Shown: piece after piece, positions 37,390 to 41,941 of the stretch | Position numbering within the stretch: position 1 is the stretch's first letter | Layout of the letters: each line of letters starts with the position of its first letter | Source of the DNA: Pelagerythrobacter marinus | Lineage (GTDB): Bacteria > Pseudomonadota > Alphaproteobacteria > Sphingomonadales > Sphingomonadaceae | Assembly: GCF_009827515.1 (NCBI RefSeq) | Contig: NZ_WTYO01000002.1 | Location: 1 to 64,000, forward strand | Direction: 5' to 3' | Length of the DNA: 64,000 nt | Notes under the pieces: generated by a model | Seen by the model: the letters and a program-made list of their open reading frames with translations, nothing else | The model's database searches: none | Told to the model about the DNA's origin: nothing | Program-made: the position numbers and the translations under genes

Positions 37390-37917
37390 ATGATACAGCG
37401 ACCGATCGTGACCGCCTTGCCCTTCCTCCTCGCGCTTGCCGCCTGCGGCGCGCCGGAACCCTCCGGCGAACCGGCCGATGCCGGTGCCGACACCGATGCC
37501 GGCGCGATTGACGATATCGACCGCCCGGCAGGCTCTCCCGACAACGCGCCGGCGGAGCCTGCGCGCGATCGCGACCCGGCGCGGACCGGCAGCATTCCGC
37601 TCACCGCGTCCTACGTGCGTGGTTCGTGGGTCGCCAAGGGCGTCGAGGCCGACTGCGACCGGCCCGATTTCCAGGTCCGCGCCAATCGCGGCGGCGACCA
37701 CGTGATCGAAACCAGCGTCAACGGCATCCCCGCCACCGGGCGCGTCGCCCTGGGCGAAGACCCGGCCCTGCGCTGGGACGAGGGGATTCCGCCGCTTCCG
37801 ATCGCGGCGCGCGGCCCCGACGGGCTAGCCGTCATGCCGTCGTCCGGCGAACGCGAGGTGACGCTCGCCGGTCAGCCGATCACCGGGGACGGCGTGGTCT
37901 TCGTCAAGTGCGGCTGA
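37390..37917 (+). CDS. putative lipoprotein of unknown function
   Basis: A 175-residue predicted lipoprotein. The signal peptide ends in the lipobox LAACG at residue 19, followed by a disordered Ala/Asp/Glu/Pro segment to about residue 65. A small beta-rich domain then contains two cysteines (EADC near 97 and KCG at the end) and is likely periplasmic. I do not recognise a family. It lies between rimM and trmD and overlaps the 3' end of the opposing oxidoreductase gene by 14 bases. Confidence 0.7.
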   Translation: MIQRPIVTALPFLLALAACGAPEPSGEPADAGADTDAGAIDDIDRPAGSPDNAPAEPARDRDPARTGSIPLTASYVRGSWVAKGVEADCDRPDFQVRANRGGDHVIETSVNGIPATGRVALGEDPALRWDEGIPPLPIAARGPDGLAVMPSSGEREVTLAGQPITGDGVVFVKCG

Positions 37918-38830
37918 CGGGCTGACGGCGGAGCGGGCGTTCGCGCGCCAGGTGGTTGCGGATCGTCGTCGCGGCGACCCCGGCCTGGCCCATCGCGTGG
38001 CTGATCTGGTCGAGCCCGATCACCACGTCGCCGGCAGCGAACAGGCCGGGCACGCTCGTTTCCAGGTGATCGTCGACCGCGATACAGCCATCCTCGCTCG
38101 TCCCGGCCCCGGCCAGCCCCGCCAGCTCGGAGCGGACATGGGTGCCGAGCGCCGGATAGACGCTTTCGAAGGACATGCGCCGTTCGGCCGTGTCGAAAGC
38201 CAGCCGATCGCCCTCGATCGCGAAGCCGCCGCAGGGGCCGGGAACGCGGGCGATCCCCGCGTCGTCGAGCCGGGCCGAGCACTCCGCGTCGAGGTCGTGG
38301 TCGCCGTGGGGGCTGACGAGCGTCAGATCGGCGGTGAAGCCGCGCAGGAACAGCGCTTCCGCCGTGCCATGCTTTCCGGTGCCGATCACCGCGACCTTGC
38401 GGTCGGTGACCTCGTATCCGTCGCAGACCGGGCAATAGCGGATCAGCCCGCGAGCGAGCGCGGCGTCGTGCAGCTCGTCGGCCAGGGCATCGGGCCGGCG
38501 GTTGACGACCCCGGTGGCGAGCAGGACGGTGCGCGCGGTAAAGGTTCCCGCCGCGGTGCCCACGGTGAAGCGGTCGCCGGCCTTGGCCAGATGCTCGACC
38601 CGCGTTTCCTCGCGCAGGGCGCCGTACTTGCGCGCCTGCGCGTTCATCCGGCGCAGAAGCTCCTTGCCCGCGATCCCGTCGGGATAGCCGGCATGGTTGT
38701 GGGTGCACGGTATCCAGGCCGCGCGGCTGGTGCCGCAGTCGAACAGCCGGATCGAGAGATGATAGCGCGCGAGATAGATCGCCGCGGTCAGGCCGGCCGG
38801 GCCGGCGCCGATGATGATGCAGTCGTCCAT
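37904..38830 (-). CDS. FAD-dependent oxidoreductase, thioredoxin-reductase-like
   Basis: A 308-residue flavoprotein. It has an FAD-binding IIIGAGPAGLTAAIYLAR, a central NAD(P) domain VAVIGTGKHGTAEALFL, a redox-type CPVCDG (Cys133, Cys136) where thioredoxin reductase has CATCDG, and an FAD C-terminal motif VPGLFAAGDVVIGLDQISHAMGQAG. The spacing fits the low-molecular-weight thioredoxin reductase family, but the CPVC motif and the sequence around it suggest a different partner. The electron acceptor is unknown. It is encoded opposite to the ribosomal cluster, between rimM and trmD. Confidence 0.85.
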   Translation of the reverse strand: MDDCIIIGAGPAGLTAAIYLARYHLSIRLFDCGTSRAAWIPCTHNHAGYPDGIAGKELLRRMNAQARKYGALREETRVEHLAKAGDRFTVGTAAGTFTARTVLLATGVVNRRPDALADELHDAALARGLIRYCPVCDGYEVTDRKVAVIGTGKHGTAEALFLRGFTADLTLVSPHGDHDLDAECSARLDDAGIARVPGPCGGFAIEGDRLAFDTAERRMSFESVYPALGTHVRSELAGLAGAGTSEDGCIAVDDHLETSVPGLFAAGDVVIGLDQISHAMGQAGVAATTIRNHLARERPLRRQPVSRT

Positions 38831-38872
38831 CCTGCTTGCTAATCCCCTTCCGCCTGGCGCATGGGCGTGGTC

Positions 38873-39715
38873 ATGACTTTTGCCGCCACCATTCTAACGC
38901 TCTATCCCGAGATGTTTCCCGGGCCGCTCGGCGTTTCGCTGGCCGGGCGCGCGCTGGAGCGGGGCGACTGGGCCTGCGAGAGCGTGCAGATCCGCGATTT
39001 CGCCACCGACCGGCACCGCACGGTGGACGACACGCCGGCCGGGGGCGGGGCGGGCATGGTGCTGAAGGCCGACGTGCTGGCGAGGGCGCTGGATTCGGTG
39101 CTGGCGAAGCCCTCTCCCCTCCGGTGGAGAGCGTTGGGAGAGGGGGCCGCGGCACAGGTAGCGGGCGACCCCCTCCCCCCGACCCTCTCCCGTGAAGGGG
39201 AGGGAGAGAGGCCCATCCTCGCCATGACGCCGCGCGGCGAGCCGATCACGCAGGCGCGGATTCGCGAGCTGGCGGCGGGCCCGGGCGTGGTGATCCTGTG
39301 CGGCCGGTTCGAGGGGTTCGACGAGCGCCTGTTCGAAGCGCGGCCGCAGATCGAGCAGGTCAGTCTCGGCGACGTGGTGCTCTCGGGCGGAGAGCCGGCC
39401 GCGCTGGCGATTCTCGACGCTTGCATTCGCCTGCTTCCGGGCGTAATGGGCGCGGCTTCGAGCGGGGCCGAGGAATCCTTCGAGGAAGGGCTTCTCGAAT
39501 ACCCGCAATATACCCGACCTGTCGAATGGGAAGGGCGCAGGATCCCTGAAGTGCTGCGATCGGGGGATCATGCGAAGATCGCGGCGTGGCGCAGGCAACG
39601 CAGCGAGGATGACACACGGTCACGCAGGCCGGACCTTTGGGAGCGTTACTGTGACGCTCGGGACCGACCTGCCTCTGGCGCGCAGCGAAAAGACGTAGGA
39701 AGACCAGGCAAATGA
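38873..39715 (+). CDS. trmD: tRNA (guanine37-N1)-methyltransferase with 33-residue insertion
   Basis: SPOUT enzyme that methylates G37 of tRNAs reading CNN codons. The 280-residue protein shows [39 protein letters not shown], the knot region [13 protein letters not shown] and [11 protein letters not shown], and YTRPVEWEG. Residues 80-112, between the GMVLK helix and [11 protein letters not shown], do not belong to the family. They are encoded by a 99-bp palindromic element at 39110-39208, inserted in frame. The ATG at 38873 fits the family N-terminus better than the one at 38861. It overlaps rplS by four bases (ATGA). Confidence 0.93.
39110..39208. repeat. 99-bp palindromic element inside trmD
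   Basis: CCCTCTCCC occurs at 39110-39118 and again at 39183-39191. Its exact complement GGGAGAGGG is at 39136-39144, and a near-complement GGGGAGGGAGAG is at 39197-39208. Two hairpins therefore flank a GC-rich centre. The length is a multiple of three with no stop in the trmD frame. Such CT/GA-rich palindromes are normally extragenic; here the element is translated. Origin as a transposed REP-like unit is inference. Confidence 0.85.
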
Positions 39716-40086
39716 ACCTGATCCAGCAGCTCGAGGCCGAAGCCATCGAGAACCTCGGGAAGGACATTCCCGAATTCCGCGCCGGCGACACCGTGCGCGT
39801 CGGCGTGAAGGTCGTCGAAGGCACGCGCGAGCGTGTGCAGAATTTCGAAGGCGTGGTGATCGCCCGTTCGAACCGCGGCATGGGTTCGAACTTCACCGTG
39901 CGCAAGATGAGCTTCGGCGAAGGCGTGGAGCGCGTGTTCCCGCTCTATTCGCCGGTCGTGGACAGCATTACCGTGGTTCGCCGCGGCGTCGTGCGCCGGG
40001 CGAAGCTCTACTACCTGCGCGGCCGCACCGGTAAATCGGCCCGCATCGCCGAGCGCCGCGACAGTCGCCCGACCGCGAAGGCCTGA
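39712..40086 (+). CDS. rplS: 50S ribosomal protein L19
   Basis: Large-subunit protein at the subunit interface. The 124-residue sequence shows [56 protein letters not shown] and [25 protein letters not shown], all family hallmarks. It starts within the trmD stop codon (ATGA). A clear intrinsic terminator follows at 40113-40152. Confidence 0.97.
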
Positions 40087-40112
40087 CAGCCTCCGACCGG
40101 GAACGAGACAAG

Positions 40113-40152
40113 CGAAGGGGCGCTCCGGCACAGGGTCGGGGCGCCCCTTTTG
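40113..40152 (+). terminator. rplS intrinsic terminator
   Basis: AGGGGCGC (40116-40123) pairs with GCGCCCCT (40141-40148), directly followed by TTT. This is a textbook stem and T-tract ending the trmD-rplS transcript. Confidence 0.85.
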
Positions 40153-40179
40153 CTTGGCCCGGCACAATTTCAATTGCGG

Positions 40180-40206
40180 TTGCGCGCGCCCCGCGGGGCG
40201 CTAGGC
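40180..40206 (+). promoter_or_regulatory. asd promoter
   Basis: TTGCGC (40180-40185), 15 bp and CTAGGC (40201-40206), about 30 bp before the asd ATG. The CTAGGC -10 is the same as that before rpsA. Confidence 0.4.
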
Positions 40207-40235
40207 ACGCGACCGGAACCAGCTAGGAGCAGCAG

Positions 40236-41261
40236 ATGGGATATCGGGTGGCAATCGTCGGCGCGACCGGGAACGTCGGGCGCGAGATGATGCAGATTCT
40301 CGCCGAGCGCGAGTTTCCCTGCGACGAAGTGGCCGCGGTGGCCAGCTCGCGTTCGGTGGGGACCGAGGTCGAATTCGGTGACACCGGCAAGATGCTCAAG
40401 TGCAAGAACATCGAGCATTTCGATTTCACCGGCTGGGACATCGCCCTGTTCGCCGCCGGCAGCGGCCCGGCGAAGGAATATGCGCCCAAGGCGGCCGCCG
40501 CCGGCTGCGTGGTGATCGACAATTCCTCGCTCTACCGGATGGAGCCGGACGTGCCGCTGATCGTGCCGGAGGTGAACCCCGACGCGATCGACGGCTATAC
40601 CGCGCGCAACATCATCGCCAATCCCAACTGCTCGACCGCGCAGCTCGTCGTCGCGCTCAAGCCGCTGCACGACGCGGCGACGATCAAGCGGGTCGTCGTC
40701 AGCACGTACCAGTCGGTGTCCGGCGCGGGGAAAGCGGGGATGGACGAGCTGTTCGAACAGAGCCGCGCGATCTTCGTCGGCGACCCGGTCGATCCGAAGA
40801 AGTTCACCAAGCAGATCGCCTTCAACGTCATCCCGCACATCGACGTCTTCTTGGACGACGGTTCGACCAAGGAAGAATGGAAGATGGTGGTCGAGACCAA
40901 GAAGATCCTCGATCCGAAGGTGAAGCTCAACGCCACCTGCGTGCGTGTGCCGGTCTTCGTCGGCCATTCCGAAGCGGTCAATATCGAGTTCGAGAGCGAG
41001 CTTTCGGCCGAGGCGGCGATGGATATCCTGCGCGAGGCGCCGGGAATCATGCTCGTCGACAAGCGCGAGGACGGCGGATACGTCACCCCGGTCGAGAGCG
41101 CGGGCGACGGCGCGACCTATATCAGCCGCGTGCGCGAAGACCCTACGGTCGAGAACGGCCTGACGCTGTGGTGCGTCAGCGACAACCTGCGCAAGGGCGC
41201 CGCGCTCAACGCGGTGCAGATCGCCGAACTGCTCGGCCGGCGGCACCTGAAGAAGGGGTGA
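40236..41261 (+). CDS. asd: aspartate-semialdehyde dehydrogenase
   Basis: NADP-dependent enzyme of the Asp-family amino acid and diaminopimelate pathway. The 341-residue protein has an N-terminal VAIVGATGNVGREMMQIL Rossmann motif, an SSRSVG loop, the catalytic Cys132 in NPNCSTAQ, and LNATCVRVPVFVGHSE in the second domain. Length and motifs are normal. It is probably cotranscribed with the following DsbA-fold isomerase gene (32-bp gap). Confidence 0.96.
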   Translation: MGYRVAIVGATGNVGREMMQILAEREFPCDEVAAVASSRSVGTEVEFGDTGKMLKCKNIEHFDFTGWDIALFAAGSGPAKEYAPKAAAAGCVVIDNSSLYRMEPDVPLIVPEVNPDAIDGYTARNIIANPNCSTAQLVVALKPLHDAATIKRVVVSTYQSVSGAGKAGMDELFEQSRAIFVGDPVDPKKFTKQIAFNVIPHIDVFLDDGSTKEEWKMVVETKKILDPKVKLNATCVRVPVFVGHSEAVNIEFESELSAEAAMDILREAPGIMLVDKREDGGYVTPVESAGDGATYISRVREDPTVENGLTLWCVSDNLRKGAALNAVQIAELLGRRHLKKG

Positions 41262-41293
41262 CGCGCGCCGGGCCTTGCGGCACAAGGCGCCGC

Positions 41294-41941
41294 ATGACCC
41301 TGTCCGCCGAACTCTATTTCAGCTTCCGCAGCCCGTACAGCTACCTCGCCATCGGCCGCTATCGCGCGATGGCGAGGGACTGCGCGGTGGATATCTCGCT
41401 GCGTCCCGTCTATCCGCTGGCCATCCGTCAGCCGGATTTCTTCGAGCGCAATCATCCGAACTGGCTGCAATACACCTTTCTCGACATGGCGCGCGTGGCA
41501 CAGTTCCACGACATCCCCTTCGCCCTGCCGCGCCCCGATCCGATCGTGCAGGACGTGGCGACCCGCCGGATCGCGCCCGAGCAGCCCTATATCCGCCGGA
41601 TCACGCGGCTGGGGCAGGCGGCGGCGCGGCGGGGCCGGGGGTTGGCCTTCGCGCACGAGGCCGCGCAGCTGATCTGGGGCGGGGCGGAAAACTGGCACGA
41701 GGGCGATCACCTCGCCGGGGCGGCAGAGCGGGCCGGGCTCGACCTCGCCGAGCTGGACCGCGAGGTGGCGGCCGAGCCCGAAACGCTCGACGCCGAGATC
41801 GCGGCGAACCAGCAGGCGCTGGAGGATGCCGGCCACTGGGGCGTGCCGACGCTGGTTTTCGACGGCGAGCCGTTCTTCGGGCAGGACCGGATCGCCATCG
41901 CCCGGTGGAGGATGGAGCAGAAGGGACTGGAGAAACGATGA
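41294..41941 (+). CDS. DsbA-fold 2-hydroxychromene-2-carboxylate isomerase-like protein
   Basis: A 215-residue thioredoxin-fold protein of the HCCA isomerase / kappa-GST group. The N-terminal LYFSFRSPYSYLAIGRYRAM has the SPYS motif (Ser in place of the redox Cys) that binds glutathione. The C-terminus GHWGVPTLVFDGEPFFGQDRI is the cis-Pro region and final beta-alpha unit. The true substrate is unknown and may be any glutathione-linked isomerisation or transfer. Its stop overlaps the next start (ATGA). A diverged copy of its 3' end is found again at 42449-42541. Confidence 0.88.
   Translation: MTLSAELYFSFRSPYSYLAIGRYRAMARDCAVDISLRPVYPLAIRQPDFFERNHPNWLQYTFLDMARVAQFHDIPFALPRPDPIVQDVATRRIAPEQPYIRRITRLGQAAARRGRGLAFAHEAAQLIWGGAENWHEGDHLAGAAERAGLDLAELDREVAAEPETLDAEIAANQQALEDAGHWGVPTLVFDGEPFFGQDRIAIARWRMEQKGLEKR

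Follow-up and report, generated by a model that had tools for sequence, protein, structure and literature searches.

The trmD gene of a Pelagerythrobacter genome (Erythrobacteraceae; 3.0 Mb) contains a small palindromic doublet inside its reading frame, and the protein linker that this doublet enlarges is filled by unrelated palindromic families in many genera. The gene lies within the window, that is, the whole stretch of 64,000 nucleotides analyzed here. The explanation that best accounts for the data as a whole, and that we consider likely, is that REPIN-like selfish doublets are tolerated in permissive protein loops and perhaps sheltered there. Palindromes within genes (Rickettsia) and REP dimers within genes (Erythrobacter litoralis) are already known, the new part being the serial colonization of one essential loop by unrelated families. 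This amounts to a replicated natural experiment, in which related bacteria have received dozens of peptides of unrelated origin, about 30-50 residues in length, at one loop of a single essential enzyme. Moreover, a known curiosity, repeats translated inside proteins, becomes a testable matter of tolerance, of benefit and of what moves REP-like elements where the genome has no RAYT.

The palindromic insert of trmD

The insert-bearing gene (38873-39715, forward strand) encodes a tRNA (guanosine(37)-N1)-methyltransferase. Its ORF scores 280.4 bits against NCBIfam NF000648 (curated equivalog cut-off of 220) and 238.7 bits against TIGR00088 (cut-off of 195), and matches Pfam PF01746. The start at 38873 was set by alignment with the PDB chain 3ief_A, the alternative start being an ATG at 38861. 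Between 34882 and 39715, ffh- and rimM-like genes are found 5' of trmD, with a FAD-dependent oxidoreductase-like gene on the opposite strand (37904-38830) between rimM and trmD; after trmD comes rplS (39712-40086, forward strand), whose start overlaps the trmD stop. All these neighbors were named by eye.

The insert (39110-39208, forward strand) comprises 99 bp and corresponds to residues 80-112 of the ORF. It is an inverted pair of CCCTCTCCC palindromes, in frame and free of stops, which adds 33 codons. The left arm (39110-39146, forward strand) is a decayed form of CCCTCTCCCCTTCAGGGGAGAGGG plus TTGGGAGAGGGGG, whose intact form is present in P. rhizovicinus (loci L022/L082). A spacer of 22 bp (39147-39168, forward strand) separates it from the right arm (39169-39208, forward strand), which is inverted with respect to the left one. 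The arrangement is that of a REPIN, two palindromes inverted around a spacer and capable of forming a hairpin, decayed in the window copy. The spacer is near-identical in P. rhizovicinus and different in P. aerophilus (G001) and in genome G003; therefore, at least the window genome and P. rhizovicinus share one insertion. The window has a single occurrence of the right-palindrome motif, against a mean of 0.01 in shuffled sequences, and a repeat search of the window reported no inverted pair in 39110-39208 because the palindromes are decayed. Inspection by eye of the stem ends of the window element showed neither a GTAG nor a CGTC tag, GTAG being present in its spacer. Within the mismatch limits used, the window contains no palindromes of types B, C and D, described below. 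As RNA, the window insert folds with a z score of -3.2 (102 nt) or -2.2 (whole linker), and the less decayed copy of P. rhizovicinus with -6.9 and -6.1, respectively. As DNA with its flanks, the fold of the window copy is unexceptional (z of -1.15).

Three other identities of the insert were considered and ruled out. The region 37500-41500 gives no Rfam match at the gathering threshold, which excludes a known structured RNA. An assembly artefact or a pseudogene is excluded by the presence of the same type, with the frame kept, in the separate assemblies of five members of the genus. Finally, a lineage-specific TrmD domain is incompatible with unrelated sequences that interchange at the site and with the same palindromes found outside genes.

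In the window TrmD, the linker that receives the insert has 38 residues, compared with mostly 5, 6 or 8 in insert-less relatives of the family. In genome G006, from the same genus, it has 5 residues (PAGRP), hence the 33 extra residues of the window protein. The linker is bounded by a 20-residue segment on the N-terminal side and by PILAMTPRG on the C-terminal side. In two of the PDB alignments listed, the match is interrupted between query residues 76/77 and 112, and the PDB chain 7kff is aligned across the insert as one stretch. An AlphaFold2 model built from an alignment of 37 sequences (mean pLDDT of 64.6, pTM of 0.60) matches TrmD structures (3ief, Z of 22.9, rmsd of 1.4 over 151 residues) and places the insert between the helix 66-78 and the strand 115-124, just before PILAMTPRG. 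Residues 85-110 have pLDDT values under 50, and the two lowest blocks (pLDDT of 33 and 37) belong to the insert. Since the C-terminal half of the model is also poor (blocks with pLDDT of 38-54), a low pLDDT is not special to the insert, and the disordered loop predicted there is weakly suggested by it. These results agree with the preliminary description of the sequence, which proposed an in-frame, stop-free stretch of 99 bp in trmD: the ORF lies above the NCBIfam cut-offs for TrmD, the insertion point is a short linker in insert-less relatives, as had been claimed, and the predicted structure has the insert as a loop, as had been expected. The location given there, between two conserved knot segments, is corrected to one between the helix 66-78 and the strand 115-124.

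At the protein level, pN/pS values of the insert are 1.35, 0.76 and 0.67 in three Pelagerythrobacter pairs, compared with 0.19, 0.29 and 0.12 for the rest of the gene, with about 31 synonymous sites behind the constraint estimate. This indicates a protein sequence that changes nearly neutrally, as would be expected of a passenger that has to stay in frame but in which the identity of the residues is of little importance. Judging from the open frame, the insert would be translated as part of TrmD, and the enzyme would be able to work with it.

Occupancy of the linker in the genus and the family

Within Pelagerythrobacter, the window insert type is carried by the window genome, P. rhizovicinus (G005), P. 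aerophilus (G001), G003 and G004. G002 has an unrelated doublet, of type B (ATCCTCCCCGGGACGGGGAGGGGGACC), in the same linker, and in G006 the linker is empty; neither type-A nor type-C palindromes were found in the G006 genome. The type is thus present in five of the seven members of the genus (one of the seven with the unrelated doublet and one empty), but this is not one event specific to a strain or a genus: unrelated palindromic families occupy the same linker in many genera. Nor do distant relatives have the same 33 residues. Inserts of this kind can also break assemblies: that of G004 is cut at the trmD insert (L078/L079), and its other contig ends also carry type-A palindromes.

To cover the family, 173 trmD loci, duplicates included, were read. 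The linker is complete in 164 of them, of which 151 are different, and the nine others are five insert-less loci and four pieces of G004. Of the 151 non-redundant loci, 47 have a linker that is filled and spans 35-96 residues, in a sample partly biased towards inserts because 80 named contigs were ranked by similarity to an insert-bearing query. An insert-blind search, with a query devoid of the insert, covered 249 family genomes: TrmD was matched in 247 and an insert was read in at least 28 of these. Linkers of 15 (L103) and 22 residues (G057) were not counted as inserts.

By eye, the 47 inserts fall into five broad groups, A-like (20), B (12), C (CTTCGACAGGCTCAGGACGAACGG, 11), D (3) and F (1), with ten finer labels. 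The RNA fold has a z score of -2 or lower in 43 of the 47 and of -3 or lower in 37; the four without an exceptional fold (L185, L027, L029 and L087) are presumably decayed. All lie in the same linker, and in the subset of inserts compared the point of entry varies from the very start of the linker to some 35 bp in. The trmD frame is kept and stop-free in 47/47 inserts, against only 12 to 28 open inserts for any one of the five remaining frames, in a locus search that demanded a stop-free stretch and passed over the nine loci mentioned above. A preference for hydrophilic frames was not shown (used versus other open frames, p of 0.16). In one locus (L161), a type-B element is read in a frame other than that of the remaining B inserts and is still open, which shows that a given element allows more than one translation.

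A quick one-gene TrmD tree (127 rows, linker left out) was used to count the changes of state by parsimony. With the full tree and all labels, 36 changes are obtained, and a conservative count, in which look-alike types are merged and branches under 95 are collapsed, gives 20. Scoring only presence or absence requires 22 changes when the tree is kept whole, and this number drops to 8 once branches under 95 are collapsed. The label of L161 has a small effect: moving it from a label merged with the A-like types to B lowers the finer-label count, taken at 95, by one (26 to 25), with no effect on the merged count of 20. Moreover, states are mixed inside 12 GTDB genus codes, which implies at least 16 changes by our own tally (A-like types merged and each genus assumed to be one clade), and 10 of these 12 codes include empty sites, most of them judged from match length. 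These counts, together with the mixed states within genera, lead to the conclusion that the linker has been filled many times.

Copies outside trmD and relation to known repeats

The window genome has four further clear copies of the element, a count that refers to clear loci with weaker pattern matches left out, and all four were judged intergenic from ORFs read by eye. The early proposal of a palindromic repeat inside trmD, much as in Rickettsia, and of a kind otherwise located between genes, is therefore supported: an inverted doublet is present, and the further copies looked for in the genome exist and were judged intergenic. Of the two outcomes that would have spoken against it, the same residues in distant relatives and a genome devoid of related copies, neither was obtained. 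None of the four is co-located with a copy among the 20 retrieved from P. rhizovicinus and P. aerophilus, a comparison that covered these 20 copies and would miss decayed ones at orthologous sister sites, whereas the trmD insert is shared. Nonetheless, each of the six intergenic copies in P. aerophilus has its counterpart in P. rhizovicinus, so intergenic copies also persist between close species.

Other protein genes also carry such inserts. In P. rhizovicinus, ligA has a type-A doublet in frame, and the same LigA loop is filled in 11 of 40 genomes, by types that by eye are A, A2, A4, C, D, E and G-like. This set is enriched, because 29 of its 40 genomes carry a trmD insert; 10 of the ligA inserts occur among these 29 and one among the 11 without (G143, where the gene is split between contigs, was left unassigned). 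Type C is found at one loop of HisF in 4/40 genomes (the G004 loop was left out), the insert-less state of LigA and HisF being judged from split matches. HrpB has a type-C insert in one genome examined (G120). Then, as in the Rickettsia palindromic elements (RPEs), there is in-frame insertion into conserved protein genes, namely trmD, ligA, hisF and hrpB. Both trmD and ligA are essential genes, and the pattern in trmD and the DNA ligase gene is a natural test of the tolerance of essential proteins to selfish DNA.

Most doublets looked at are outside genes. Among the type-C doublets outside trmD (12 in G120 and 20 in G008), a coding-like ORF, scored by codon usage, spans 4 of the 32, with family support in 2 of the 32. 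Spanning ORFs at L211 and L237, which have no family match, were not counted as in-gene copies. For type A outside trmD, the copy is in a gene at 1 of 14 fetched places in G005 (ligA) and at 0 of 6 in G001. Type-C half-sites are commoner in genomes with a trmD insert (29 versus 11 genomes, p of 4.5e-4). Their number ranges from 0 to 149 per genome across the 40 family genomes, with similar numbers on each strand, and at the listed places in G120 and G008 head-to-head pairs are commoner than singles. The two separate type-C pieces in hrpB of G120 (L217) are one doublet and one single half-site. In sufS of G228 (L252), an in-frame type-C doublet lies at or just 5' of the SufS N-terminus; as it is possibly ahead of the true start, it was not counted as an in-gene copy.

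The window element resembles REPINs in being an inverted doublet with dispersed, mostly extragenic copies. REPINs are described as multi-copy and mostly extragenic elements, in which short palindromes paired in inverted orientation fold into one long hairpin, and are tied to RAYT transposases (Bertels and Rainey 2011; PMC3116915). However, the RAYT domain PF01797 gave no match in the window genome, and among the 40 genomes it is matched in 5 and absent from 35. The element is called REPIN-like because it has the inverted-doublet anatomy but its genome gave no match to the RAYT domain.

The RPEs are palindromic repeats of about 100-150 bp that lie in frame in conserved protein genes, at solvent-exposed places (PMC3767692, PMC2229807, PMC10969869). 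The window element is also palindromic and in frame in a conserved protein gene, but it belongs to another lineage, and in the present case a single linker, in one essential gene, is filled by unrelated families across many genera. PMC3767692 describes rickettsial orthologues with an insert at the same locus. It also notes a biotin ligase gene in which Wolbachia elements and an RPE-4-like sequence share one region, and leaves the matter of hotspots open. For GTAG/CGTC REPs, Di Nocera et al. (2013; PMC3733652) report dimers inside ORFs, including those of Erythrobacter litoralis and S. alaskensis (tRNA synthetases, TruB), a dimer in a DNA ligase of O. terrae, and different REPs at about the same site in recB of two Xanthomonas species; they also state that CGTC REPs have no transposase of their own. 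The likeness lies in dimers inside genes, DNA ligase included; a possible difference, in the stem ends of the window element, where no such tag was seen by eye. The sections of PMC3733652 consulted, its supplementary list of intragenic REPs aside, do not name TrmD, nor do they describe a loop that is occupied serially in many genera. Our literature search, with most subscription papers outside its coverage, found no paper on TrmD with such repeats and none on serial colonization of one essential-enzyme loop by many unrelated families across a bacterial family.

Origin of the inserts and alternative explanations

The 99 bp would represent a non-autonomous element of small size, built from short palindromes as an inverted doublet, that is or was probably mobile. 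Its entry into trmD would date from an ancestor common at least to the window genome and P. rhizovicinus, at the loop between the helix and the strand leading to the MTPRG segment, and there it would be transcribed and translated as a disordered loop tolerated by the enzyme. Tolerance, target choice or retention may underlie the recurrence at one loop. Most likely, three causes combine to fill the linker so frequently: the family would carry many palindromic families, the loop would accept almost any in-frame stop-free peptide, and clean deletion from an essential gene would be hard, so that an insert would outlive many intergenic copies. One observation points weakly to retention, namely the 0/4 co-located intergenic copies against the shared trmD insert; the 6/6 intergenic copies common to the two sister species speak against it. 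A stronger version, put forward tentatively and somewhat short of even chances, would make the TrmD and LigA loops refuges: since an in-frame selfish palindrome in such a loop would not be easily deleted without killing the cell, the sites would be refilled by unrelated families, which would serially rewrite a loop of an essential protein.

Recurrence could also reflect site choice rather than tolerance, if the linker DNA of trmD (and also of ligA and hisF) were the preferred target of a moving enzyme. Five broad groups of elements in a linker of 5-8 residues when empty are what such a preference would give, and by a rough estimate, which takes a target of about 30 bp in some 300 kb of tolerant sequence and genomes with tens of doublets each, the proportion of genomes hit should be well below 1%, compared with the 28 or more of 247 found. 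However, this expected rate ignores retention, the point of entry varies by up to some 35 bp, no common motif is seen by eye at the trmD, ligA and hisF sites, and one preference would have to be common to unrelated families, all of which makes target choice unlikely as the main cause.

Selection could instead have kept a useful insert, its mRNA hairpin or protein loop tuning the amount or activity of TrmD. The strong RNA hairpins predicted in most inserts, and a type present in five of seven Pelagerythrobacter species, would accord with it. Nonetheless, a near-neutral protein change, a decayed palindrome in the window copy, unrelated sequences that substitute for each other and common empty relatives make a function of this kind rather improbable.

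It is also quite doubtful that one ancient insertion marked the site and that later palindromes replaced or entered it, with few true new insertions. The stacking seen in trmD of G223 (L188), where a linker of 96 residues holds a D-type doublet and then C-type units, is what such a history would leave behind, but states are mixed within the 12 GTDB genus codes, 10 of them including empty sites, and the empty linkers read are short and clean. Finally, skipping of the palindrome by the ribosome or its removal from the mRNA, so that it never becomes protein, is scarcely credible despite the strong predicted hairpins, because the trmD frame is open in all 47 inserts, as against 12 to 28 for each other frame, in a search that demanded a stop-free stretch and whose nine passed-over loci are insert-less (five) or pieces of G004 (four).
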